A stretch of DNA of 64,000 nt from positions 1 through 64,000 of the forward strand of contig JARHVB010000005.1 in NCBI GenBank assembly GCA_029222685.1, in the 5' to 3' direction. The notes under the pieces are model-generated. The model made no database searches and was not told where the DNA came from. It worked only from the letters and a program-made list of their open reading frames with translations. Shown piece by piece: positions 32,662 through 56,796 of the stretch; positions within the stretch are counted from its first letter, which is position 1, and each line of letters begins with the position of its first letter. This stretch comes from Terripilifer ovatus. Its GTDB lineage: Bacteria > Pseudomonadota > Alphaproteobacteria > Rhizobiales > Beijerinckiaceae. The position numbers were made by a program, and so were the translations under genes.

Positions 32662-33042
32662 ATGATCGAGGAAACCAATCATCCCGATGTCGTCGCTGAA
32701 GTTAAGACTGCCTTCCAGCGCTACAACGAGGCCATTGAAACCGGCGATGTGGACACCCTGAACGCGCTGTTCTGGAACTCGCCGCTGACGGTTCGCTTCG
32801 GACCGACCGAACATCTCTTCGGTTATGGAGAAATTTCCACTTTCCGCGCCGGTACCTGGAAGCGGGGGCCGGCACGCGTGATCGAGCGTCTCGCCATCAC
32901 GGCGCTCGGCAAAGACGTCGCCACGACCAATGCTCTATTCCGTCTCGCCAACGGCAAGATCACCCGTCAATCGCAGACCTGGGCGCGCGTGCCGGAAGGC
33001 TGGCGCATCGTCGCGGCGCATGTCAGCCCGTTTCCGGGTTGA
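32662..33042 (+). CDS. HpxZ/AtzH-like (DUF3225) NTF2-fold protein
   Basis: 126-residue SnoaL/NTF2-like protein. Matching family segments are HPDVVAEVKTAFQRYNEAI, LFWNSPLTVRFG, and SQTWARVPEGWRIVAAHVS. Relatives include HpxZ, linked to oxalurate/purine catabolism, and AtzH of the cyanuric acid pathway. The ATG at 32662 is chosen because homology starts there. It lies 0.6 kb before the binding-protein and adenine-deaminase cluster, so a link to N-rich heterocycle or ureide breakdown is attractive but unproven. Confidence 0.85.
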   Translation: MIEETNHPDVVAEVKTAFQRYNEAIETGDVDTLNALFWNSPLTVRFGPTEHLFGYGEISTFRAGTWKRGPARVIERLAITALGKDVATTNALFRLANGKITRQSQTWARVPEGWRIVAAHVSPFPG

Positions 33043-33061
33043 AGGGCGTTCCCTAAGCTCG

Positions 33062-33433
33062 TCAAATTGCGATCCAGTAGGGAGAGGTCTGGTAATAGTC
33101 GTGGATGCTCTTTTCATAAGCGGGATCGCCCCATTTGGGCGTCTCGTCGCGCCCATAGGTTGGTGCCTTCTCGAGTTGCTCGATGGTCAGCCCAACGACA
33201 TAGCCGCCTTGCCGCGTGTCGTATTTCAGGCTCGCCCACGGCAGCGGATGGTAGCGTTCGCCGATCGATAGAAAGCCGCCAAACGACATGATCGCATAGG
33301 CTATCTTGCCGCTCTTCTTGTCGATCATGACATCGTAGATTTCGCCTAGCCGGTCGCCATTCGTATTATAGACATCCGTGCCTTTCACCTTGCCTGCAGA
33401 GATCAGCGCGGTGGTTTCATCAAGCGCTTCCAT
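33062..33433 (-). CDS. PRC-barrel domain protein
   Basis: 123-residue soluble protein with one PRC-barrel (about residues 12-90: GTDVYNTNGDRLGEIYDVMID, IMSFGGFLSIGERYHPLPW). The aromatic C-terminal tail includes YYQTSPYW. Stand-alone PRC-barrel proteins of this type are abundant in rhizobia and often stress-associated, without a defined function. It starts at the ATG at 33433 and ends convergently 20 bp from the HpxZ-like gene. Confidence 0.88.
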   Translation of the reverse strand: MEALDETTALISAGKVKGTDVYNTNGDRLGEIYDVMIDKKSGKIAYAIMSFGGFLSIGERYHPLPWASLKYDTRQGGYVVGLTIEQLEKAPTYGRDETPKWGDPAYEKSIHDYYQTSPYWIAI

Positions 33434-33650
33434 CGTCAACTCCTCAGGTTTACAGAGATAAGCAGGCCGTTTCCAGCTTGAAACGGCCGCAGTCGCGGAG
33501 TCAATGCAAGCACCGGGCGAATGGTTGCAGCCCGGCTGCCGCCCCCATTTGCGTCGCGGCAAACCGCGGACTAGTTTGCCCGCGACCCGCCCGAGAATCC
33601 GGCCCGTCCGTGCCGGAGCAGGGCGCATTTGCGTGAGCGAGGGAGAGCAT

Positions 33651-34628
33651 ATGTTTTACAGGATCATCGCCGTTGCAGCCGTGCTGGCCGCCGGCCTGTC
33701 GGCGCAGGAAGCCGGCGCCCAGGAGAAGTCTGGTGGGCAAGAAAAGCTTAGGCTGGCCATCGGCCAGCGTGGCAACTGGGACACATCAATACCGGAACTC
33801 GGCACCCAAAAGGGCATCTTCAAGAAGCATGGCCTTGAGCTTGAAATGCTGTATACGCAGGGCAGCGGCGAAACCATCCAGGCCGTCATTTCCGGCTCGG
33901 CCGATATCGGCCTCGCGGCCGGACATACCGGCGCAATGGCCGCCTTCGACAAGGGTGCACCGGTCCGCCCGATCAGCAATTCGATGACGGGCGCGGACGA
34001 TCTTTACTGGTACGTGCCGGCGAATTCGCCGATCAAGGCGATTCAGGATGCCGGCGGCAAGACCATCTCCTATTCGACCCGCGGATCCTCGACAAACATC
34101 GCCGTTCTCGGCTTCATCAATTACTTCAAGGTCGACATGAAGCCGACCCCGGTCGGCGGCCCGGCTTCTTCCTTCGCCCAGACCATGTCCGGCCAGGTTG
34201 ATATCGGCTGGTCCTCGGCGCCGCTCAACCTGCAGGACGTGAAGAGCGGGCGCATCCGCATTCTCGTCCGCCAGTCGCAGGTACCGAAATATGAGAACAT
34301 GACCGTCCGCGTCAACATCTCGAACCTGCAGACGATCCAGACCCGCAAGGCTGCGCTCGAGAAATTCTATGCCGCCTATGCCGAGACGCTCGACTGGATG
34401 TATTCCGATCCCGACGCCCTGAAGCGCTGGTCCGACTGGACGCAGACGCCGCTCGATGTGGCGACCGGCATGCGCGACGAATTCTTCCCCAAGAAGAACC
34501 TGCTGCTTGAGCGTCTTTCGGGGATCGACGACACCATGGCCGACGCCGTTGAAATGAAGTTCCTTCCAAAGCCCCTGGAAAAGGACAAGCTGACGGAATT
34601 CTACAAGGACTATTACAAGAAGCCTTGA
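33651..34628 (+). CDS. ABC transporter substrate-binding protein (SsuA/NMT1-like), orphan
   Basis: 325-residue periplasmic binding protein. A Sec signal peptide (MFYRIIAVAAVLAAGLSAQ, cleavage near AGA) precedes the NMT1/SsuA-type core: LRLAIGQRGNWDTSIPELG, GIFKKHGLELEMLYTQGSGE, and GSADIGLAAG. The fold and length fit receptors for sulfonates, nitrate-like ions, taurine or pyrimidines. The ATG at 33651 has GGGAG upstream. No permease adjoins; the nearest unpaired ABC machinery is at 39782-41430 on the same strand. Confidence 0.9.
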   Translation: MFYRIIAVAAVLAAGLSAQEAGAQEKSGGQEKLRLAIGQRGNWDTSIPELGTQKGIFKKHGLELEMLYTQGSGETIQAVISGSADIGLAAGHTGAMAAFDKGAPVRPISNSMTGADDLYWYVPANSPIKAIQDAGGKTISYSTRGSSTNIAVLGFINYFKVDMKPTPVGGPASSFAQTMSGQVDIGWSSAPLNLQDVKSGRIRILVRQSQVPKYENMTVRVNISNLQTIQTRKAALEKFYAAYAETLDWMYSDPDALKRWSDWTQTPLDVATGMRDEFFPKKNLLLERLSGIDDTMADAVEMKFLPKPLEKDKLTEFYKDYYKKP

Positions 34629-34646
34629 AAGACGGTCGCAGCGAAT

Positions 34647-34682
34647 GTCATTCCCGCTCGCGCTTCGCGCGTCGGGGATGAC
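34647..34682. repeat. Short gtcattcccg-type hairpin repeat
   Basis: Arms gtcattcccg and cggggatgac enclose a GC-rich centre (gctcgcgc/gcgcg). It lies just after the first binding-protein stop and may terminate transcription. A related degenerate copy is at 50753-50790. Confidence 0.7.
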
Positions 34683-34714
34683 AGCGCGCCGGCCCTAGTC
34701 TCCCTGTCACACTC

Positions 34715-34730
34715 TGGCACCCGACTTGCT
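34715..34730 (+). promoter_or_regulatory. Sigma-54 promoter of the second NMT1/THI5-like gene
   Basis: TGGCAC-ccgac-TTGCT matches the -24/-12 consensus TGGCAC-N5-TTGCW at every informative base with exact spacing. The predicted transcription start is near 34741, about 20 nt before the ATG at 34762 and just ahead of the ribosome site. This implies RpoN-dependent, probably nitrogen-responsive, expression. No enhancer-binding protein gene is in the window. Confidence 0.75.
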
Positions 34731-34732
34731 TT

Positions 34733-34755
34733 GCCTCCGCTAATGAAACGGAGGC
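34733..34755 (+). promoter_or_regulatory. Hairpin covering the Shine-Dalgarno sequence
   Basis: GCCTCCG (34733-34739) can pair with CGGAGGC (34749-34755), closing a 9-nt loop. The 3' arm contains the GGAGG ribosome site of the gene starting at 34762. A transcript from the sigma-54 promoter would start inside the loop and lack the 5' arm. A read-through transcript from upstream would contain the full hairpin. Confidence 0.55.
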
Positions 34756-34761
34756 TGATCA

Positions 34762-35766
34762 ATGAAAACTGGTGTTTTGTCGCGGCGCCGCATGCTCACC
34801 GGGGCCGCGAGCGCCGCGGTGGCAGCGCCGATCCTGCGGGCGCGGCCGGCGCGCGCGGCAACCAAGCTGCGCTTTCTGATGAACTGGTTCGCGGAAGCCG
34901 AACACGGTGGATTTTATCAGGCGAAAGCGACCGGTCTTTATAAAAAGGCCGGCTTCGACGTCGAGCTGATGCAGGGCGGCCCGCAGCTCAATGCCGTCCA
35001 GCTCCTGCTTGGCGGCGAAGCCGATGTCATTCTCGGCTACGACCTGCAGCTCCTCAGCGGCATCGAAAAGGCGCTGCCAATGCGCGCCATCGCGGCCTCG
35101 TTCCAGACCGATCTGCAAGGCCTGATGACACGCCCGAACGTGAAATCCTTCGCCGAGCTGAAGGGACGCAAGGTCTATATCGCCAACAGCGGCTACACCA
35201 CCTATTGGCCGTGGCTCAAAAAGAAATTCGGCTTCACCGATGAGATGGCGGCGCCCAAGGGCGTTGGCCTGCAGACGTTCTTCGCCGATCCGACATCGGC
35301 CGCGGCAGGCTATATCACTGCCGAGCCCTATTACGCCAAGCAGCGCAACGAGGACGTCAATTTTCTCCTGTTCTCGAATGACGGCTGGCCGACCTATACG
35401 AACCCGCTCGTCGCCAGCACCGACTATCTCGCCAAGCACAAGGATCTCATCCGTCCCTTCCTCAAGGCTTCGATGGAAGGCTGGAAGTCCTATATGGCCG
35501 ATCCGACGCCGGGCAATAATCTCATCAAGCAGATGAACCCGAAGATGGACGACGGCCAGATAGATTTCAGCCTGGCGCGTATGCGCGAGATCAAGACTCT
35601 GGAAAGCGGCGACGCCGCCAAATTGGGTCTCGGCTGCATGACCGAGGAGCGCTGGCGCAAGACGCGCGACTTCATGGTCGAGGTCAATCTGCTCAAGCCC
35701 GAGACGGATTGGAAACAGGCCTTCACCACCGAGTTCATCGACGACGTTCACGTCATGCCGTCGTGA
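34762..35766 (+). CDS. NMT1/THI5-like ABC substrate-binding protein
   Basis: 334-residue exported binding protein. A Tat signal (SRRRMLTGAASAAVAAPIL) precedes LRFLMNWFAEAEHGGFYQAK, GLYKKAGFDVELMQGGPQL, and IGYDLQLL-like core segments (residues about 32-330). The NWFAEAEHGGFYQA segment resembles ThiY/NMT1 receptors for pyrimidines and similar N-compounds. The Thi5 iron-type CCCFC motif is absent, so this is a receptor and not an HMP synthase. It has a sigma-54 promoter and a strong GGAGG site. No permease is adjacent, so it probably serves the ABC genes at 39782-41430. Confidence 0.9.
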   Translation: MKTGVLSRRRMLTGAASAAVAAPILRARPARAATKLRFLMNWFAEAEHGGFYQAKATGLYKKAGFDVELMQGGPQLNAVQLLLGGEADVILGYDLQLLSGIEKALPMRAIAASFQTDLQGLMTRPNVKSFAELKGRKVYIANSGYTTYWPWLKKKFGFTDEMAAPKGVGLQTFFADPTSAAAGYITAEPYYAKQRNEDVNFLLFSNDGWPTYTNPLVASTDYLAKHKDLIRPFLKASMEGWKSYMADPTPGNNLIKQMNPKMDDGQIDFSLARMREIKTLESGDAAKLGLGCMTEERWRKTRDFMVEVNLLKPETDWKQAFTTEFIDDVHVMPS

Positions 35767-35777
35767 CTCAACGCGGC

Positions 35778-35804
35778 CCTTCTCCCGCGCAGGGCGGGAG
35801 AAGG
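35778..35804. repeat. ccttctcccg/cgggagaagg hairpin repeat
   Basis: A perfect 10-bp stem with a 7-nt loop lies between the convergent binding-protein and dioxygenase genes. This is another repeat wording I know as common in Hyphomicrobiales. It is placed as a bidirectional terminator would be, but has no T-run. Confidence 0.75.
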
Positions 35805-35853
35805 TAAGCCCTTGCGCAGCAAGGATCGGACGAGGGTGGGATCAACCGCACGC

Positions 35854-36780
35854 TCACGTTCCCGTCGCAGCCATTTCCTTGCGATAGGTATAGAACTTGT
35901 TGAACTTCGACAGCAGGAACTGCCCGGCGCTCATGTCGGGCATGCCATCGAACACCGAATCGAAATCCGGATCGTAGAAGAACGGAATCGAATAACGTCC
36001 GATCCCCGCGCGGTTGATGACGCGATGCGGCGCCGAGCGAAACATACCTCCCGTCATCTTCTCCACCATGTCTCCAAGGTTGATGATGAAGGCATCAGCA
36101 CGCGGCGGGACGCCGACGATCGCATTGCCGGGCGTGCGCACTTCCAGGCCACCGGCCGAATCCTGCGCGAGAATGGTCAGAAACCCGTAGTCCTGATGTT
36201 CGGCCGCGCCATGTTCGCGCGCCTCGATGCGGCTGTTGGGCGGGTAGTGGAACAGCCGCATGAAGGCGATCGGCTTGCGGTAGCGCGCGCGCAGGTCGGC
36301 CGGCTGCATGCCAAGACACAGCGCCAGCGGCCCCAGCAGCCGGTTGCCCAGCTTCATCATCTCCGAAAAATACTGCTCCACGTCTTCGCGATAGCCCGGC
36401 AGATCGGGCCAGCGGTTGACGCCGTGCAACGGCTTGCCGGCCAGGATGTCCGGATCGTCAGGTGTCAGCGGCAGGCCGAGATTGAAGCTTTCCTTGAGGT
36501 CCGGCAGGTTGCCTTCGTAGACGGTCTGGTGCATCGGCGCATAGCCGCGATTGCTCTTGTCGATCTTCAGCGCCAAGCGCGCGTCCAGGGGCTGTTCGAA
36601 AAACCGCCGCGCCGCCGCAAAGGCCTTTTGCGTCGATGCCGCGGGAACGCCGTGGCCGATGAGCTCGAACGCCCCCCAGGTCCGCAGCACGCCGTCCAGC
36701 TCCTTCGCCACGACGCTGTCGCCATCCGCATCGCCCGCCACCACCGGCGTCAGATCAATCGTCGGAATCGTTTCGCTCAT
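35854..36780 (-). CDS. Isopenicillin N synthase-like 2-oxoglutarate/Fe(II) oxygenase
   Basis: 308-residue DIOX_N/2OG-FeII_Oxy protein. The N-terminal IPTIDLTPVVAGD and GAFELIGHGVPAA are family hallmarks. The iron triad is His and Asp in EHQDYGFLT and His in SAPHRVIN, and the 2-oxoglutarate-binding Arg lies in GRYSIPFFYDP. The ATG at 36780 has AGGAG upstream. It is divergent from the adenine deaminase/ABC operon and convergent with the sigma-54-controlled receptor gene, so it may process the imported compound. The substrate is unknown. Confidence 0.9.
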   Translation of the reverse strand: MSETIPTIDLTPVVAGDADGDSVVAKELDGVLRTWGAFELIGHGVPAASTQKAFAAARRFFEQPLDARLALKIDKSNRGYAPMHQTVYEGNLPDLKESFNLGLPLTPDDPDILAGKPLHGVNRWPDLPGYREDVEQYFSEMMKLGNRLLGPLALCLGMQPADLRARYRKPIAFMRLFHYPPNSRIEAREHGAAEHQDYGFLTILAQDSAGGLEVRTPGNAIVGVPPRADAFIINLGDMVEKMTGGMFRSAPHRVINRAGIGRYSIPFFYDPDFDSVFDGMPDMSAGQFLLSKFNKFYTYRKEMAATGT

Positions 36781-36985
36781 GCGCTGCTCCTGGCTCTCTG
36801 CCTGCCGGGACCGAGCAATGGACATGCCATGCAACCGCATTGATTTGTAACGGACTTTGACAGATCAATGAACAGAAACAATGCAGTACGCTCAAAATAA
36901 GGGCGATGCTGCTTTTTCTATCAGCTCGACAAGACAGGGCTGTGTACTATCCCTTGGACCACCTCCACCCAGCCGAAAACGCCCC

Positions 36986-37909
36986 ATGAAACTGGCCATT
37001 CCGGATTTTATTTCCAACTCCTATTTCCCCGCCATTGCCGCCGCCGAACTGGGTTTCTTTGCCCGCGAAGGACTTGATGTCACTGTTGAATTGATGGTTC
37101 CGATCGAGACCGCCATCGCCGGCATGCGCAACGGTACGGTGCATTTCGTCGGCGGCTCCGCACACCTCATGGTCGGCGGCTTCCCGGAATGGGATGGCGT
37201 CAAGCTCATCTGTGCCCAGTCGCAAGGCATGTACTGGTTTCTGGTTGTCCACGCCGATCTCGGCCTGCGCCCTGGCGATCTCGCCGGGCTGCGCGGCCTG
37301 CGCATCGGCGCCGCACCCTGGGTCGCCATGGGGCTGCGGCGGCTCCTGATCGAAGCCGGGCTCGACCCTTCCATGAACGACATTACGATCGAGCCCATCC
37401 CCGGCGCCCATGGGGCCGGCGTCAATTTCGGCGTCACCGCCGCCAGGGCCCTTGAAGAAAAGCGTGTCGACGGCTTCTGGGCCAACGGCATGGGCGCTGA
37501 AATCGCCATCCGCAACGGCATCGGCACCCTGCTACTCGACGCCCGGCGGGGCGACGGGCCAAAGCCCTGTTTCGACTATACGATGGCCTCGCTCGCCATC
37601 ACCGACGGTTTCCTGCAGCACCATGGCGATGCAGCCGCCGCTGCCGTGCGCGCCATGGCGCAAACCCACCGCGCCCTGAAAGCCGATGTCTCGCTCGCCG
37701 GCAAGGTCGGCCGCGCCCTGTTTCCGGCGATGGAAGCGGAGCTGATCGTCGATCTCGTGCGGCGCGATCTCCCCTACTATGATACGGTGATCAGGCCCGA
37801 ATTCGTGAGCGCGATGACGCAGTTCTCACGTGACGTCGGCATTCTGAAAGGCCGTCCCTCGTATACGGATGTCGTAGCGGACGGCATGAGCAAATTCTGG
37901 AGTTCATGA
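36986..37909 (+). CDS. Signal-less NMT1/SsuA-like binding-fold protein
   Basis: 307-residue protein with the same fold as ABC receptors: PDFISNSYFPAIAAAELGFF, AREGLDVTVELMVP, and NGTVHFVGGSAHLMVGGF. There is no signal peptide at the chosen ATG (36986) or in the short in-frame upstream sequence, so it is predicted to be cytoplasmic. Its stop overlaps the adenine deaminase start (ATGA). It could be a cytosolic ligand-binding or enzyme-like protein of the THI5 superfamily. A missed non-ATG start with a signal is not supported by the upstream sequence. Confidence 0.85.
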   Translation: MKLAIPDFISNSYFPAIAAAELGFFAREGLDVTVELMVPIETAIAGMRNGTVHFVGGSAHLMVGGFPEWDGVKLICAQSQGMYWFLVVHADLGLRPGDLAGLRGLRIGAAPWVAMGLRRLLIEAGLDPSMNDITIEPIPGAHGAGVNFGVTAARALEEKRVDGFWANGMGAEIAIRNGIGTLLLDARRGDGPKPCFDYTMASLAITDGFLQHHGDAAAAAVRAMAQTHRALKADVSLAGKVGRALFPAMEAELIVDLVRRDLPYYDTVIRPEFVSAMTQFSRDVGILKGRPSYTDVVADGMSKFWSS

Positions 37910-39738
37910 TGGTCACGCCGGTTCGCATCGCAAGCTGGGATGAATCCGCGGCAGCCCTGATCGATGTCGCCAGCGGCCGCAAGCCCGCCGATGTCGTGGT
38001 CCGCAGCGGCCGCTGGGTGAACGTCTATTCCGGTGAGATCATCGCGGAAACCGATATCGCGATCATCGCCGGCCGCTTCGCCTATGTCGGGCCTTCGGCC
38101 CAGCATGCCATCGGACCCGACACGAAGATCATCGAGGCGAACGGCCGTTATCTCATGCCCGGCCTCTGCGATGCGCACATGCATGTGGAAAGCGGCATGG
38201 TGACGGCGACCGAATTCGCCCGCGCCGTCATCCCGCATGGCACGACGAGCATGTTCGTCGACCCGCACGAGATCGCCAACGTGCTGGGGCTCGACGGCGT
38301 CCGACTGATGCATGACGAGGCGGCAGGCCTGCCGGTCAACATGTTCGTGCAGGTGCCGGGCTGCGTGCCGAGCGCGCCGGGCCTGGAAAACGCCGGCGCC
38401 AGCATCGGCCCCGCCGATGTCGCGGAAGCGATGCGCTGGCCCAATATCGTCGGCCTCGGCGAGATGATGAATTTTCCCGGTGTCGCAGCGTCCGATCCCA
38501 ATATGCTCGGCGAGATCGCCGCGACCCAGCGTGCCGGCAAGACCGTTGGCGGCCATTACGCCTCGCCTGATCTGGGACTGCCCTTTCACGCCTATGTGGC
38601 GGGCGGCCCCGCCGACGATCACGAAGGCACCCGCATCGAGGATGCCATCGCCCGCGTCCGCCAAGGCATGCGCGCCATGCTGCGCCTCGGCTCCGCCTGG
38701 TATGATGTCGCCTCGCAGATCAAGGCCGTCACCGAGCGCGGCCTCGACCCGCGCAATTTCATCCTCTGCACCGACGATTGCCACTCCGGCACTCTGGTCA
38801 ACGACGGCCATATGAACCGCGTCGTCCGCCACGCCATCGCACAAGGCCTGAAACCCATCATCGCCATCCAGATGGCGACCCTGAACACGGCGCAGCATTT
38901 CGGTATGGAGCGCGAACTCGGCGCCATCGCGCCGGGCCGCCGCGCCGATCTCATTCTGACGTCAGACCTCGCCACCCTGCCGATCGAACTGGTCATGGCG
39001 CGCGGCCAGGTGCTTGCCGAGAACGGTAAGCTTGCTGTCGACATTGCGCCTTACGCCTATCCGAAGAACAGCCGCGACACCGTGCATCTCGGGCGCGCGA
39101 CGACCGGTGACGATTTCGTTATTCCTGCGCCGGGAAACATGGCGAGCGTCGAGGCCAATGTCATCGGCGTCATCGAGAACCAGGCGCCGACCCAGGCCCT
39201 GGTCCGCCGCCTGCCCTGCGCCAACGGCAGGGTCGAAGCCGATGTCTCGCTCGACGTCTGCCATATCGCCGTCGTCGAGCGCCATCGCGCAACCGGCAGG
39301 ATCGCAAATGCCTTCGTCTCGGGCTTCGGCTACGAAAAGCCCTGCGCTATCGCCAGCACGGTGGCGCACGACAGCCATCACGTCATCGTCGTCGGCACCT
39401 CGCGCGCCGACATGGCCCAAGCCGTCAACCGGCTGGCGGAGGTCGGCGGCGGCATCTGCATGGTCAGCGAGGGCCGCGAACTGGCGCTCGTCGAACTGCC
39501 GATTGCCGGCCTGATGTCGGACGAGCGTGCCGAAATTGTCGCGGTCAAGGCGGAGCGCGTGATGCAGGCCATGCGGGCCTGCGGCTGCACGCTCAACAAC
39601 GCCTTCATGCAGCACTCGCTACTGGCGCTCGTCGTCATTCCCGAATTGCGTATTTCCGACATCGGCCTCGTCGATGTGCGCACATTTCAGCCAATTCCCG
39701 TGTTGCTGCCAGAAGCCACATCCAGCGAAGCGGTCTGA
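37906..39738 (+). CDS. ade: Adenine deaminase family amidohydrolase
   Basis: 610-residue metal-dependent amidohydrolase. It has the metal-binding CDAHMHVESGM motif, the PHEIANVLG segment, ILCTDDCHSGTLVNDGHMN with the catalytic Asp/His region, and the long C-terminal adenine deaminase domain (VAHDSHHVIVVGTS, and CTLNNAFMQHSLLALVVIPELR, cited in part). Family reaction: adenine to hypoxanthine plus ammonia. Some paralogues act on related N-heterocycles, and its placement inside an ABC uptake operon would fit such a role. Two ATGs are adjacent (37906 and 37909). It overlaps the upstream gene by 4 bp. Confidence 0.9.
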   Translation: MMVTPVRIASWDESAAALIDVASGRKPADVVVRSGRWVNVYSGEIIAETDIAIIAGRFAYVGPSAQHAIGPDTKIIEANGRYLMPGLCDAHMHVESGMVTATEFARAVIPHGTTSMFVDPHEIANVLGLDGVRLMHDEAAGLPVNMFVQVPGCVPSAPGLENAGASIGPADVAEAMRWPNIVGLGEMMNFPGVAASDPNMLGEIAATQRAGKTVGGHYASPDLGLPFHAYVAGGPADDHEGTRIEDAIARVRQGMRAMLRLGSAWYDVASQIKAVTERGLDPRNFILCTDDCHSGTLVNDGHMNRVVRHAIAQGLKPIIAIQMATLNTAQHFGMERELGAIAPGRRADLILTSDLATLPIELVMARGQVLAENGKLAVDIAPYAYPKNSRDTVHLGRATTGDDFVIPAPGNMASVEANVIGVIENQAPTQALVRRLPCANGRVEADVSLDVCHIAVVERHRATGRIANAFVSGFGYEKPCAIASTVAHDSHHVIVVGTSRADMAQAVNRLAEVGGGICMVSEGRELALVELPIAGLMSDERAEIVAVKAERVMQAMRACGCTLNNAFMQHSLLALVVIPELRISDIGLVDVRTFQPIPVLLPEATSSEAV

Positions 39739-39781
39739 ACCGGCCCAAGGCTTGCTTGGGGTTCGGGAACAGACGCGTTTG

Positions 39782-40636
39782 ATGGATAGTGGAATGACCC
39801 CCGCGCCTTTAACTTTCGACGAGCCGGAAGCGAAAGCCGCCGCGAGGCTGCAGCCTGCGCCGGTGATCGAAGTCCTTTCGGCGGAAAAAGTGTTTGCCGA
39901 CGGCACGCGCGCCCTGCAACCGGTCGATCTGACCTTGCGGGCCGGCGATTTCATGACCCTGATCGGGCCGTCGGGATGCGGCAAGAGCACCCTGCTCGGC
40001 ATGATGTCCAATCTCCTGCAACCCTCCGAGGGGCGCCTGAGCTGGTGGCGCGGTGGCCCCGAAAAGATCGGCGCCAAGGGACGCCAGATCGGCATCGTAT
40101 TTCAGGACCCGACGCTGATGCCGTGGGCGACTGTCGAGAGCAATGTGCGCCTGCTGTTCGATCTCGATCGCGTGCCGGCGTCGGAGTCCATGCCGCGCGT
40201 GCGCGACGCCCTGGCCAGGGTGGGCCTGTCCAAGTTCGCCAAACATTATCCCCGCCAGCTCTCCGGCGGCATGCGCATGCGCGTTGCCATCGCCAGAGCG
40301 CTCGCCACCGATCCCGATGTCCTGCTGATGGACGAGCCCTTCGGAGCGCTCGACGAATTCACCCGCCACAAGCTCGATGCCGACATTCTCGACATGTGGC
40401 AGGAGCGCTCGCTGACCGCGGTCTTCGTCACCCACTCCATCTACGAAGCCGTGTTTCTTTCAACCCGAATCGTCGTAATGGCGGCAAGTCCCGGACGGAT
40501 CATTCACGAAATCATCGTCGATGAGCCCTTTCCGCGCGACGAATCCTTTCGGGTCAGCACGCGCTTCGCCAACCTCTGTGCCGACGTGCTGAACGCGCTG
40601 TCGCTTGCACAGAAGCCAAATCATGGTGCGTCATGA
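39782..40636 (+). CDS. ABC transporter ATPase (SsuB/TauB/ThiZ-type)
   Basis: 284-residue ATP-binding subunit. It has Walker A GPSGCGKST, the Q-loop IGIVFQDPTLMPW, signature LSGGMRMRVAIARAL, Walker B VLLMDEPFGALD and an H-loop in VTHSIYEA. The start is taken at the ATG at 39782; an upstream in-frame ATG at 39674 overlaps ade and adds a non-conserved Cys-rich stretch. The stop overlaps the permease start by 4 bp. It belongs to the taurine/nitrate/pyrimidine importer subfamily. Confidence 0.93.
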   Translation: MDSGMTPAPLTFDEPEAKAAARLQPAPVIEVLSAEKVFADGTRALQPVDLTLRAGDFMTLIGPSGCGKSTLLGMMSNLLQPSEGRLSWWRGGPEKIGAKGRQIGIVFQDPTLMPWATVESNVRLLFDLDRVPASESMPRVRDALARVGLSKFAKHYPRQLSGGMRMRVAIARALATDPDVLLMDEPFGALDEFTRHKLDADILDMWQERSLTAVFVTHSIYEAVFLSTRIVVMAASPGRIIHEIIVDEPFPRDESFRVSTRFANLCADVLNALSLAQKPNHGAS

Positions 40637-41430
40637 ACAGCAACAAGGCCGAAAATGCCATGCGGATCGGCGCGCCGTTCGCCGTCGGGCTTGCCTTGCT
40701 GCTGGTCTGGCAGACCCTTTGCACCGCCTATGCAGTGCCCTCCTACCTGTTTCCCAAGCCGAGCGACATCTCCGACAGTTTCGGCCGCGAATGGCATACG
40801 CTGTTTGCAGCACTGGGAACCACGTTGAAGATCACCTTGTCCGGCTTCGCCGCAGCCTGCGTGATCGGCATCCTGATCGCTGTCATCTTCGTGCAAAGCA
40901 AGGTTATCGAACTGGCGTTCTTTCCCTACGCCGTCCTGCTGCAGGTCACGCCCATCGCCGCCGTCTCGCCGCTGATCGTTATCCTGGTCAAGAACACCAC
41001 CGGCGCGCTTATCGTCGTATCGACGATCGTCGCCCTGTTTCCGATCATTTCCAATACCACGCTCGGGCTGAGGAGCGTCGATCCGGGATTGTTGAACCTG
41101 TTTCGCGCGCGCCGGGCGTCACGGCTGCAGATCCTGTTGCGCCTGCGCGTCCCCAGCGCCCTGCCGTATATTTTCGCAGGCTTGAGGATTTCGATCGGCC
41201 TCGCCCTGATCGGCGCGGTGGTCGGTGAATTCGTCGCCGGCACCGGCGGTCGCGGCTCGGGCCTCGCCTATCAGATCCTGCAGGCCGGCTTTCAGCTCGA
41301 TATCCCGCTGATGTTCGCGGCGCTCGCGCTGATCAGCGTCGCCGGCATCGCCATGTTCACCGTGATGCTGGTACTCACCCGCTTGGCGTTGAGCCACTGG
41401 CATGAGAGCGAACTCGAAGCGCGCAGATGA
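40633..41430 (+). CDS. ABC transporter permease (SsuC/ThiX-type)
   Basis: 265-residue inner-membrane subunit with about six helices. The EAA-like loop is GLRSVDPGLLNLFRARRASR followed by LRVPSALPYIFAGLRI, as in SsuC/TauC proteins. It overlaps the ATPase gene by 4 bp. Together with that gene it forms the only unpaired translocator near the two exported receptors at 33651 and 34762. The operon thus reads binding-fold protein, ade, ATPase, permease. Confidence 0.93.
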   Translation: MNSNKAENAMRIGAPFAVGLALLLVWQTLCTAYAVPSYLFPKPSDISDSFGREWHTLFAALGTTLKITLSGFAAACVIGILIAVIFVQSKVIELAFFPYAVLLQVTPIAAVSPLIVILVKNTTGALIVVSTIVALFPIISNTTLGLRSVDPGLLNLFRARRASRLQILLRLRVPSALPYIFAGLRISIGLALIGAVVGEFVAGTGGRGSGLAYQILQAGFQLDIPLMFAALALISVAGIAMFTVMLVLTRLALSHWHESELEARR

Positions 41431-41451
41431 ACGCCGACCGGAAAGATGCGG

Positions 41452-42357
41452 TCAGGCGATCTTTTCGCTCCCGCGAGCGTTGCGTGTCTGGTCCTCGTAT
41501 TGCGCCGCATTCGCCAGAATAGCGCTGGTGCCGAGCAGCTTGTTCAACTGGTCAAAATCGAGCATGCGCGTCCGAAAGACCTCGTTGGTCCCGTGCTGCT
41601 GCAGGCTGGCGTAATAATCCTGCGCGATCCGCGCGAAGGCACGGACGATGCCGCCGGGAAAAATCACAAGGCGAAAACCGAGCTGCTCGAGATCCACGGC
41701 ACTCAAAGGCGGCGTGCGCCCACCCTCGACCATATTGGCCATGAGCGGCCGGTTGTCGCCGAACCGGTTGCGGATCGCGGCAAGATCGCTACGCGATTGC
41801 GGCGCCTCGATGAACAGCACATCGGCGCCAGCTTCCGCATAGCGGGCCGCGCGGTCCAGCGCAAAATCCAGACCCTCGACGGCAACCGCATCGGTGCGGG
41901 CGATGATCAGCGTGCGGTCGGATGCGCGCGCGTCGACAGCCGCCTTGATCTTGCCCACCATCTCTCCGGCTGGCACCACCGTCTTGTCGGACAAATGCCC
42001 GCAGCGCTTCGGAAACGTCTGATCCTCGAGCTGGATGGCCGAGGCCCCGGCCCGCTCGAACAGGCGCACCGTGCGCTGCGCGTTGAGCGCGTTGCCATGG
42101 CCCGTGTCGCCGTCGACGATGATCGGCGTCTGCACGCGCTCCGTGATCAGGGCCAGCGTGTCGGCCATTTCGGTCGCGGTGACAAGGCCGATATCGGGAC
42201 GTCCGAGCCGCGAATAGGCGACCGCCGCCCCCGACAGATAGAGGCTGGAGAAGCCTGCCTCCGTGGCCAGATATGCGGTCAGCGCGTCATAGACGCCGGG
42301 CGCCACAACGATCTTTGAACCTTGAAGCTGTTCCGGTAAACCGGGGATCGAATTCAT
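41452..42357 (-). CDS. Isocitrate lyase/PEP mutase family enzyme
   Basis: 301-residue TIM-barrel enzyme. Landmarks are VVAPGVYDALTAYLA, the metal-site DGDTGHGN, and the gating-loop motif KRCGH with the catalytic Cys typical of lyases such as 2-methylisocitrate lyase. LIIARTDAVAVEG and ADVLFIEAPQS follow. The intact KRCGH loop argues for C-C lyase activity rather than PEP mutase. The natural substrate may be a 2-alkylmalate or dialkylmalate. It lies 115 bp after the ABC permease gene in the cluster that also encodes a maleate isomerase-like enzyme, which would produce related C4 acids. Confidence 0.87.
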   Translation of the reverse strand: MNSIPGLPEQLQGSKIVVAPGVYDALTAYLATEAGFSSLYLSGAAVAYSRLGRPDIGLVTATEMADTLALITERVQTPIIVDGDTGHGNALNAQRTVRLFERAGASAIQLEDQTFPKRCGHLSDKTVVPAGEMVGKIKAAVDARASDRTLIIARTDAVAVEGLDFALDRAARYAEAGADVLFIEAPQSRSDLAAIRNRFGDNRPLMANMVEGGRTPPLSAVDLEQLGFRLVIFPGGIVRAFARIAQDYYASLQQHGTNEVFRTRMLDFDQLNKLLGTSAILANAAQYEDQTRNARGSEKIA

Positions 42358-55754: not shown

Positions 55755-56744
55755 TTACTGCGTTTCAACCACGCGCTTCAGCAATCCGGCATTCCAGTCC
55801 TTGGCGAGATCGGAGCCGGCATAGGATTTGTCCGCCAGGGTGCGGAATGGCGCGAGATCGATTGCATCGACCGACAGGCCCTTGGCCTTCAGCGCGTTGA
55901 CGATCTCGGCTTCGTCCTTCAGGCGGCCTTCATCGTTTTCACGCGCGGCAGTGACGGCCGCCTCGCTGACGGCCTTCTTCTGCTCCGGGCTCAGCTTGTC
56001 CCAGAACGGCTTGGCGATGGCGAAGAACACCGGCTGCACCAGATGCGACGTCAGCACCACCTGCTGCGTGACTTCATAGAGTTTGGCGGCATTGAGAATC
56101 GACAAAGGATTTTCCTGGCCGTCGATGGTGCCGGTCTTCAGGGCCAGATAGACCTCCGGCATGCCGAGCGGTACCGGGCTGACGCCAAGCGTGCGGCCGA
56201 GCACCAGCCATTCGGGGCCGGCCGGCATGCGCATCTTCACGCCGGCGAGATCGGCCGGCGTCTTGACGTCGCGCTTCTGGCGCAGGTTGACCTGTCGCGT
56301 GCCGAGATAGGCGGTGGCGAGAATCTCGATGCCCATCTTGTCCGACACCGCCTTGCGGTATTCGGCGCCGATCGGCCCGTCGAAGACATGGCGCATATGG
56401 GTGTAATCGCGAAAAATATAGGCGCGATTGAACAGGCCCCATTCGGGAAGCTGCTGCGCCACCTCGAACGTCGTCATCGTGCTCATTTCAAGATTGCCGC
56501 GCTGCAGGGCCGGCACTTCCGTCCCCTGCCGGAACAGGCTGGAAGCGGGATAGGCTTCCGCCACAACGCCGACTTTGGCCGAGGCGATCGACGCCTTGAA
56601 GGTCTCCAGCGACCTGGCCAGGAAATCGGACGGCGGCGCAGCGCAGGAGATCCGCAACGCGATGTCGGCGGCAGCAGCCTGATTAAGCGATACAAATCCG
56701 GCAACGAGACCCATCGCCAGGATACCCAAAGACTTTCCAACCAT
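55755..56744 (-). CDS. TRAP transporter solute-binding protein (DctP)
   Basis: 329-residue periplasmic receptor. The Sec signal peptide (MVGKSLGILAMGLVAGFVSL, cleavage near QAAAA) precedes the DctP core. The ligand-clamp Arg region is LAGVKMRMPAGPEW, followed by GMPEVYLALKTGTIDGQENP. These are hallmarks of carboxylate-binding DctP proteins. The ribosome site is GGAGGAGG. The operon has a candidate sigma-54 promoter and is divergent from a GntR/FCD regulator. Confidence 0.94.
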   Translation of the reverse strand: MVGKSLGILAMGLVAGFVSLNQAAAADIALRISCAAPPSDFLARSLETFKASIASAKVGVVAEAYPASSLFRQGTEVPALQRGNLEMSTMTTFEVAQQLPEWGLFNRAYIFRDYTHMRHVFDGPIGAEYRKAVSDKMGIEILATAYLGTRQVNLRQKRDVKTPADLAGVKMRMPAGPEWLVLGRTLGVSPVPLGMPEVYLALKTGTIDGQENPLSILNAAKLYEVTQQVVLTSHLVQPVFFAIAKPFWDKLSPEQKKAVSEAAVTAARENDEGRLKDEAEIVNALKAKGLSVDAIDLAPFRTLADKSYAGSDLAKDWNAGLLKRVVETQ

Positions 56745-56780: not shown

Positions 56781-56796
56781 AGCAAAGGGCTTGCCA
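56781..56796 (-). promoter_or_regulatory. Candidate sigma-54 promoter of the TRAP operon
   Basis: On the minus strand TGGCAA-gccct-TTGCT matches TGGCAC-N5-TTGCW except for one base. The implied start is near 56770, about 26 nt before the DctP ATG and just before its ribosome site. Confidence 0.55.

Follow-up and report, generated by a model that had tools for sequence, protein, structure and literature searches.

According to two reports on phage T4 (PMC3014915, PMC2988022), the late promoter of the genes e (lysozyme), soc, 49 and I-TevI lies within, or next to, the 5′ arm of a hairpin by which the ribosome site is masked; in genes such as e and I-TevI the site is masked in the long early RNA and free in the late RNA, which is made without the 5′ strand. 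For gene e the same reports (PMC3014915, PMC2988022) describe a long RNA, together with mapped 5′ ends and an effect of 100-fold. The receptor gene considered here resembles the T4 late genes, as they are portrayed there, in that its ribosome site is predicted to be paired in a long RNA and free in an RNA started near the promoter; it differs from them in having a promoter of the RpoN/activator type, in being located on a bacterial chromosome and in that the upstream RNA is presumed. No RpoN version of the T4-type device was found in the accessible part of the literature searched; subscription papers are mostly outside its coverage and absence of such a version is unproven.

Hairpins closing the Shine-Dalgarno site are also known from RNA thermometers and from leaders opened by sRNAs. 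In the gene found in the window (the whole stretch of 64 000 nt of DNA that was analysed) it would, in contrast, be the choice of promoter that decides, and the predicted RpoN RNA does not contain the 5′ arm. Nitrogen-scavenging transporter genes controlled by RpoN and NtrC make up another known class. With these genes the window gene shares a full −24/−12 element, its nature as an ABC receptor gene, and the presence of rpoN and of an ntrBC-like pair; it differs in that no NtrC-like dyad (TGCAC-N7-GTGCA with up to three mismatches) was seen from 33628 to 35634 among the 200 matches listed out of 234, which extend past this stretch, and in that NtrC is a putative activator.

The locus

The features of the locus, numbered from the first letter of the window, are as follows.

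33504-34628, plus strand: gene of an NMT1/SsuA-type periplasmic receptor (open reading frame; PF09084, E 5e-19)
34646-34684, plus strand: strong palindrome (TGTCATTCCCG..CGGGGATGACA), without a T run, between the two receptor genes
34715-34730, plus strand: sigma-54 (RpoN) −24/−12 element TGGCACCCGACTTGCT, i.e. TGGCAC-CCGAC-TTGCT
34733-34739, plus strand: 5′ arm of the hairpin, GCCTCCG, upstream of the predicted RpoN start
34741, plus strand: predicted RpoN transcription start, 12 nt past C34729 (± 2-3 nt)
34749-34755, plus strand: 3′ arm of the hairpin, CGGAGGC, holding the Shine-Dalgarno site
34750-34754, plus strand: Shine-Dalgarno sequence GGAGG, 7 nt ahead of the ATG at 34762
34762-35766, plus strand: gene of an NMT1/THI5-like ABC-transporter receptor, 334 aa (PF09084, E 2.1e-29)
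35775-35810, plus strand: stem-loop (CTTCTCCCGC..GCGGGAGAAG) just 3′ of the 334-aa receptor gene
39674-41430, plus strand: ABC ATPase and permease, ∼4 kb downstream of the 334-aa receptor gene

The upstream receptor gene, for which a signal-peptide-like start at 33651 appears more likely, lies on the same strand as the promoter and ends 86 nt ahead of the −24/−12 element. The palindrome that follows it (−40.9 kcal/mol, z −4.1, for the fold of 34630-34700) may already serve as the end, or for the stabilisation, of the upstream RNA. It is reminiscent of a REP-type repeat; its first 11 letters (TGTCATTCCCG) are present in five forward and three reverse copies, itself counted, on the 333-kb contig C45.

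The best solved relative of the 334-aa receptor is 4nmy (E 5.4e-15), and the stem-loop past its gene (−26.1 kcal/mol for 35770-35810) is a possible 3′ end of the transcription unit. Genes for another NMT1 protein and for an adenine deaminase sit between the 334-aa receptor gene and the ATPase and permease; the latter two are 59-65% identical to their counterparts in the whole-genome orthologous loci examined and 47-57% identical to those of L001, in which they are divergent. In several orthologous loci the order is receptor, then ATPase, then permease; beyond the permease there follow what look like Rieske-type, FAD-type and creatininase-like proteins. The 334-aa receptor fits a role as part of a transporter scavenging nitrogen compounds, its presumable class of ligands. 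An Rfam scan of 33000-41500 (E up to 1) gave no match in the leader; the sole match, SCARNA20 at 35782-35876, was under its gathering score.

The −24/−12 element

The sigma-54 consensus is TGGCAC-N5-TTGCW, with GG and GC at a fixed spacing. All 11 specified bases are matched by TGGCACCCGACTTGCT, so that the earlier note was right in calling 34715-34730 a full match; the receptor ATG at 34762 is 47 nt past the first base of the element. With C34729 counted as −12, which is the convention we assume, +1 would fall on 34741, directly past the 5′ arm of the hairpin.

The 7.2-Mb genome has 24 copies of the pattern TGGCAC-N5-TTGC (reversed pattern: 8), and TGGCAC-N5-TTGCW occurs 281 times across 51 genomes of the genus versus 94 for the reversed pattern. 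Judged by eye, several further exact sites in the genome lead transporter receptor genes. An element with at least 10 of 11 matching bases was present within 150 nt upstream of 16 out of 886 script-picked ORFs (1.18 Mb) and, on the opposite strand, of 9, a count that also takes in elements of divergent genes; single matches are therefore unsafe if they have no other support.

For the window promoter such support came from homologues. Of the 35 receptor loci, 34 (one of them the window) had enough upstream DNA; in each of these we scored the 200 nt ahead of the script-chosen gene start by its best site and derived the expectation from dinucleotide shuffles. An element with at least 10 of 11 matches was observed in 20 of the 34 loci (19 of 33 if the window is set aside), with 0.145 expected, and in none of the 34 regions when the reverse strand was read. 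Nine of the 14 loci with at least 45% protein identity, window excluded, reached this level; no element of at least 10/11 was found in the other five (L005, L008, L013, L014 and the paralogue L060). As gene starts were chosen by script, some of the missing elements may be due to wrong starts.

A single rpoN match was obtained in the genome, along with five matches to the sigma-54 activator domain PF00158, three of them strong. By reading, the strong ones would be NtrC and NtrX, in a row resembling ntrB-ntrC-ntrY-ntrX, and one more response regulator. The NtrX-like protein is without the GAFTGA loop; therefore, NtrC would be the likeliest activator of the window promoter. With strong support from conservation in homologues, from rpoN and from the ntrBC-like pair, the earlier note's view of the promoter as real is upheld, and 34715-34730 is almost certainly a genuine RpoN promoter.

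Two more RpoN-type elements, each with 10 of 11 matches, were seen on the minus strand: TGGCATGTCCATTGCT (36814-36829), before a 2OG-Fe(II) oxygenase gene at 35854-36840 with a predicted leader of 23 nt, and TGGCAAGCCCTTTGCT (56781-56796), directly before a gene at 55755-56744 (minus strand) whose product has a start resembling that of an exported protein. The window has three RpoN-type elements ahead of genes within 22 kb (34715, 36814, 56781).

The hairpin over the ribosome site

The arms GCCTCCG and CGGAGGC are perfectly complementary and enclose a loop of 9 nt (−11.6 kcal/mol for the hairpin alone); they are located, as had been proposed, at 34733-34739 and 34749-34755. Predicted opening of GGAGG costs 3.8 kcal/mol in an RNA with its 5′ end at 34741 (21-nt leader) and 11.4-12.9 kcal/mol in long RNAs with 5′ ends at 34600-34690. 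With 12.3 kcal/mol for the long versus 3.8 kcal/mol for the short RNA, i.e. ∼8.5 kcal/mol extra, the claim that the site is masked in the long and free in the RpoN RNA holds by predicted folding. For 5′ ends tried from 34736 to 34746 the cost was 3.5-4.2 kcal/mol; since the change of cost falls between 34734 and 34736, an error of a few bases in the predicted start is harmless. By the folding model, any long RNA running across the locus would quite probably have a masked ribosome site.

The locus might then work as follows. The RpoN promoter at 34715-34730, activated most likely by NtrC under nitrogen limitation, would make a short receptor message with a leader of ∼21 nt; because this message would begin past the 5′ arm, its ribosome site would be free. 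RNA entering from the co-directional upstream receptor gene would carry both arms and would be translated poorly. The arrangement would thus act as a passive read-through filter.

How unusual such a hairpin is can be judged from other genes. With 21-nt mock leaders, a difference of 8 kcal/mol was reached in 6 of 823 genes, window gene counted. Watson-Crick stems of at least 7 bp over the Shine-Dalgarno site were present in 3 of 534 genes (window gene counted) versus 2.1 expected from shuffles; therefore the hairpin, taken alone, is at chance level. The inverted repeat has one exact copy in the genome and, with up to two mismatches, 159 copies versus 139 for controls. A repeated operator was ruled out as the exact repeat is unique and near copies are close to the control level.

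Masking could be scored in 23 of the 35 receptor loci (the window being one of the 23), namely those having an element with at least 9 of 11 matches, a start and a Shine-Dalgarno site. None of the 22 homologues with an element showed comparable masking; their maximum extra cost was 3.4 kcal/mol, and the median across all 23 scored loci, window included, was 0.2 kcal/mol. Conservation of the pairing, as for a T4-type device, was thus not observed among 22 receptor homologues; pairing was kept in near orthologues of three other genes. When orthologous loci were compared, as the earlier note had suggested, the pairing appeared, on the face of it, to be lost in relatives that keep the gene, these relatives being only 38-57% identical to the window receptor at the protein level. 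Of the switch proposed in that note, the promoter and the folding difference stood; its selected nature is tentative, with the hairpin at chance level, no comparable masking in the 22 scored homologues and a read-through RNA that is presumed.

We also examined nine neighbourhoods besides that of the genome's own paralogue. In seven, including that of L001, the closest relative, the upstream gene is divergent, so that it would send no read-through RNA into the receptor gene; in L094 and L096 there is an upstream ORF on the same strand, which is of uncertain coding status. Of the nine neighbourhoods, eight belong to the 22 scored homologues, and seven of these eight are divergent.

Similar layouts at other genes

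A sample of the genus comprised 69 distinct exact sites in other genomes (29 loci from a search and 40 hand-picked among the matches listed), of which 59 had a usable downstream gene. Extra masking of at least 4 kcal/mol was predicted in 9 of these 59 sites, versus a background of ∼5% (binomial P 0.0025), and of at least 8 kcal/mol in 2 of 59, versus 0.7% (binomial P 0.06); some sites are orthologues and so are not fully independent. In the two strongest cases the stem measures 12-13 and 9 bp, and its 5′ arm falls in the stretch from the −12 element to about +4.

A search through 397 genomes of the family for an element followed by CCTCC within 13 nt and by GGAGG 3-22 nt further gave nine sites (reversed pattern: 0). 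Seven of the nine can be extended by Watson-Crick pairs and the remaining two by G-U pairs only; the genes behind them code for receptors, a glmS-like protein, a Rieske protein, a chlorite-dismutase-like protein and one protein without a Pfam match. A control with scrambled arms gave 11 rows (reversed pattern: one match); it is a weak control, with two rows representing the same site, four being sites of the family search itself and G248 pairing too.

A different layout was seen ahead of another receptor-like gene, L043, which has an exact RpoN-type element at G000:C45:144375-144390: CCTCC..GGAG of its leader lies entirely within the predicted RNA, the opposite of what is present in the window.

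Three sets of orthologues could be compared. The TctC gene was found in 8 of the 51 genomes searched. Its four nearest orthologues (77-100%) have the element at the same position, and in three of them the site is covered by Watson-Crick stems of 13, 9 and 9 bp; L219, the remaining one, has no Watson-Crick stem and folds only imperfectly, using G-U pairs, at an extra cost of 4.6 kcal/mol. Among the four distant orthologues (46-68%) three are without such a stem, and L221 retains a 10/11 element further up; L222 was left out of the stem verdict as its match begins inside the gene. The chlorite-dismutase-like case, labelled so from a domain scan of one of its three proteins, is common to three genomes; the letters of the arms differ and the extra costs are 5.5, 3.6 and 4.8 kcal/mol.

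The gene of an M48 peptidase is present in 3 of 11 genomes (L225, L226, L229). All three orthologues retain the −24/−12 element, with much of the leader changed, and directly behind it a helix covers the ribosome site; in two of the three the hairpin measures 17-18 bp. In a 9-pair helix drawn from the folds 27 of 27 cells pair, two pairs being changed on both sides, and 32-68% pair if the partners are slid by 1-3 columns; a shuffle control, which with three sequences tells nothing, gave 119/500. For two of the three orthologues, opening the site in the predicted short RNA would still cost 6.9 and 7.8 kcal/mol, with a gain of 2.7 kcal/mol each; the gain of the predicted short RNA in the glmS-like case is 1.1 kcal/mol.

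The glmS-like genes L211 (1501-1552) and L192, from two genera, have RpoN-type elements in front, with only L211 scanned; in L211 a hairpin covers the ribosome site, and an ORF on the same strand ends 30 nt further up. The glmS gene of enteric bacteria is opened by sRNAs, which can be under sigma-54 control.

For a baseline we searched for an element and then GGAGG, which gave sites in 146 of the 397 genomes; 121 rows were kept among the matches listed, and 32 genus sites, including four of the nine sites of the family search, are absent from them. Watson-Crick stems of at least 6 bp were observed in 6 of the 121 rows, with 2.12 expected (3 of 200 shuffles), and stems of at least 5 bp in 9, with 7.38 expected. 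With the window set aside and the 5′ arm required to begin no more than 6 nt from the element, the count was 5 of 120 versus 1.21 (7 of 1000). A stricter control kept positional composition by re-dealing the 3′ ends among 101 rows, with orthologues thinned by eye. Here, stems of at least 5 bp numbered 6/101 versus 6.01, those of at least 6 bp 4/101 versus 1.66 (52 of 1000 permutations) and those of at least 7 bp 2/101 versus 0.48 (77/1000); with G-U pairs allowed, there were 12/101 stems of at least 7 bp versus 7.37 (38/1000). The family-wide excess of masked RpoN-type sites is borderline.

Insulators would be expected beside co-directional upstream genes. Among 40 promoters, three of them without an assignable neighbour, masking of at least 4 kcal/mol was present in 5 of 20 with a co-directional and in 2 of 17 with a divergent neighbour, i.e. 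the link was not significant (P 0.42). A class of hairpin-nested RpoN promoters in the family is thus suggestive, not established. One could speculate that a subset of the family's RpoN promoters has been nested by selection in hairpins masking the Shine-Dalgarno site, so that only activator-dependent RNA would be translated, that the nesting would be gained and lost fast, gene by gene, and that the window receptor would be a recent instance; we regard this as rather unlikely, its odds being lowered by the small gains of the short RNAs in the M48 and glmS cases.

Competing explanations

An RpoN promoter placed inside a masking inverted repeat and working as a filter against presumed read-through RNA is the best explanation we can offer, with a probability of roughly 0.45; that the hairpin was selected as the filter is a tentative proposal, at odds below even. 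For the window gene an accident is equally likely: the promoter would be real, and, the genome being GC-rich, CCTCC would stand near GGAGG by chance, the hairpin having no function under selection. The chance-level number of long stems, the 22 of 22 scored homologues with no comparable masking, the uniqueness of the exact repeat and the weak statistics across the family all agree with such an accident. It does not account as easily for similar layouts retained, with partly changed sequences, among orthologues of three other genes, nor for nine masked promoters among the other genus sites, in a sample that holds orthologues and for which 40 of 69 loci were hand-picked among the matches listed. 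What keeps the filter idea alive is that the layout recurs at other genes.

Two further explanations do without a filter. The inverted repeat, a perfect dyad spanning +1, might be an operator, i.e. a DNA site for a protein over the transcription start; given that the genome has no second exact copy, that near copies are close to the control level and that no such dyad was evident by eye upstream of the homologues, we consider this very improbable. The other cases also speak against an operator in sharing the complement of the ribosome site with paired letters varying by gene, a feature for which the searches selected. The least probable reading takes the hairpins for RNA thermometers or other leader switches, transcribed from a start further upstream, with the −24/−12 match there incidental. 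M48 peptidases are stress-type genes in which thermometers would be unsurprising, and the costly opening of two of the three short M48 RNAs points that way; the window gene, too, could in principle have another promoter. However, all three M48 orthologues retain the element despite many changes in the leader, the element of the window gene is conserved without the hairpin, and the only sigma-70-type match found from 33000 to 36000 lies at 34288-34315 of the minus strand.

Significance

RpoN promoters are valued because they hardly leak. If some of them also lay within a hairpin silencing the RNA that comes in from neighbouring genes, RpoN control would be doubled at no protein cost, bacterial chromosomes would have the trick of the T4 late genes, and 5′-end maps and ribosome-profiling data of RpoN bacteria would make it checkable at once. 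The recurrence across the family is the part that deserves follow-up.
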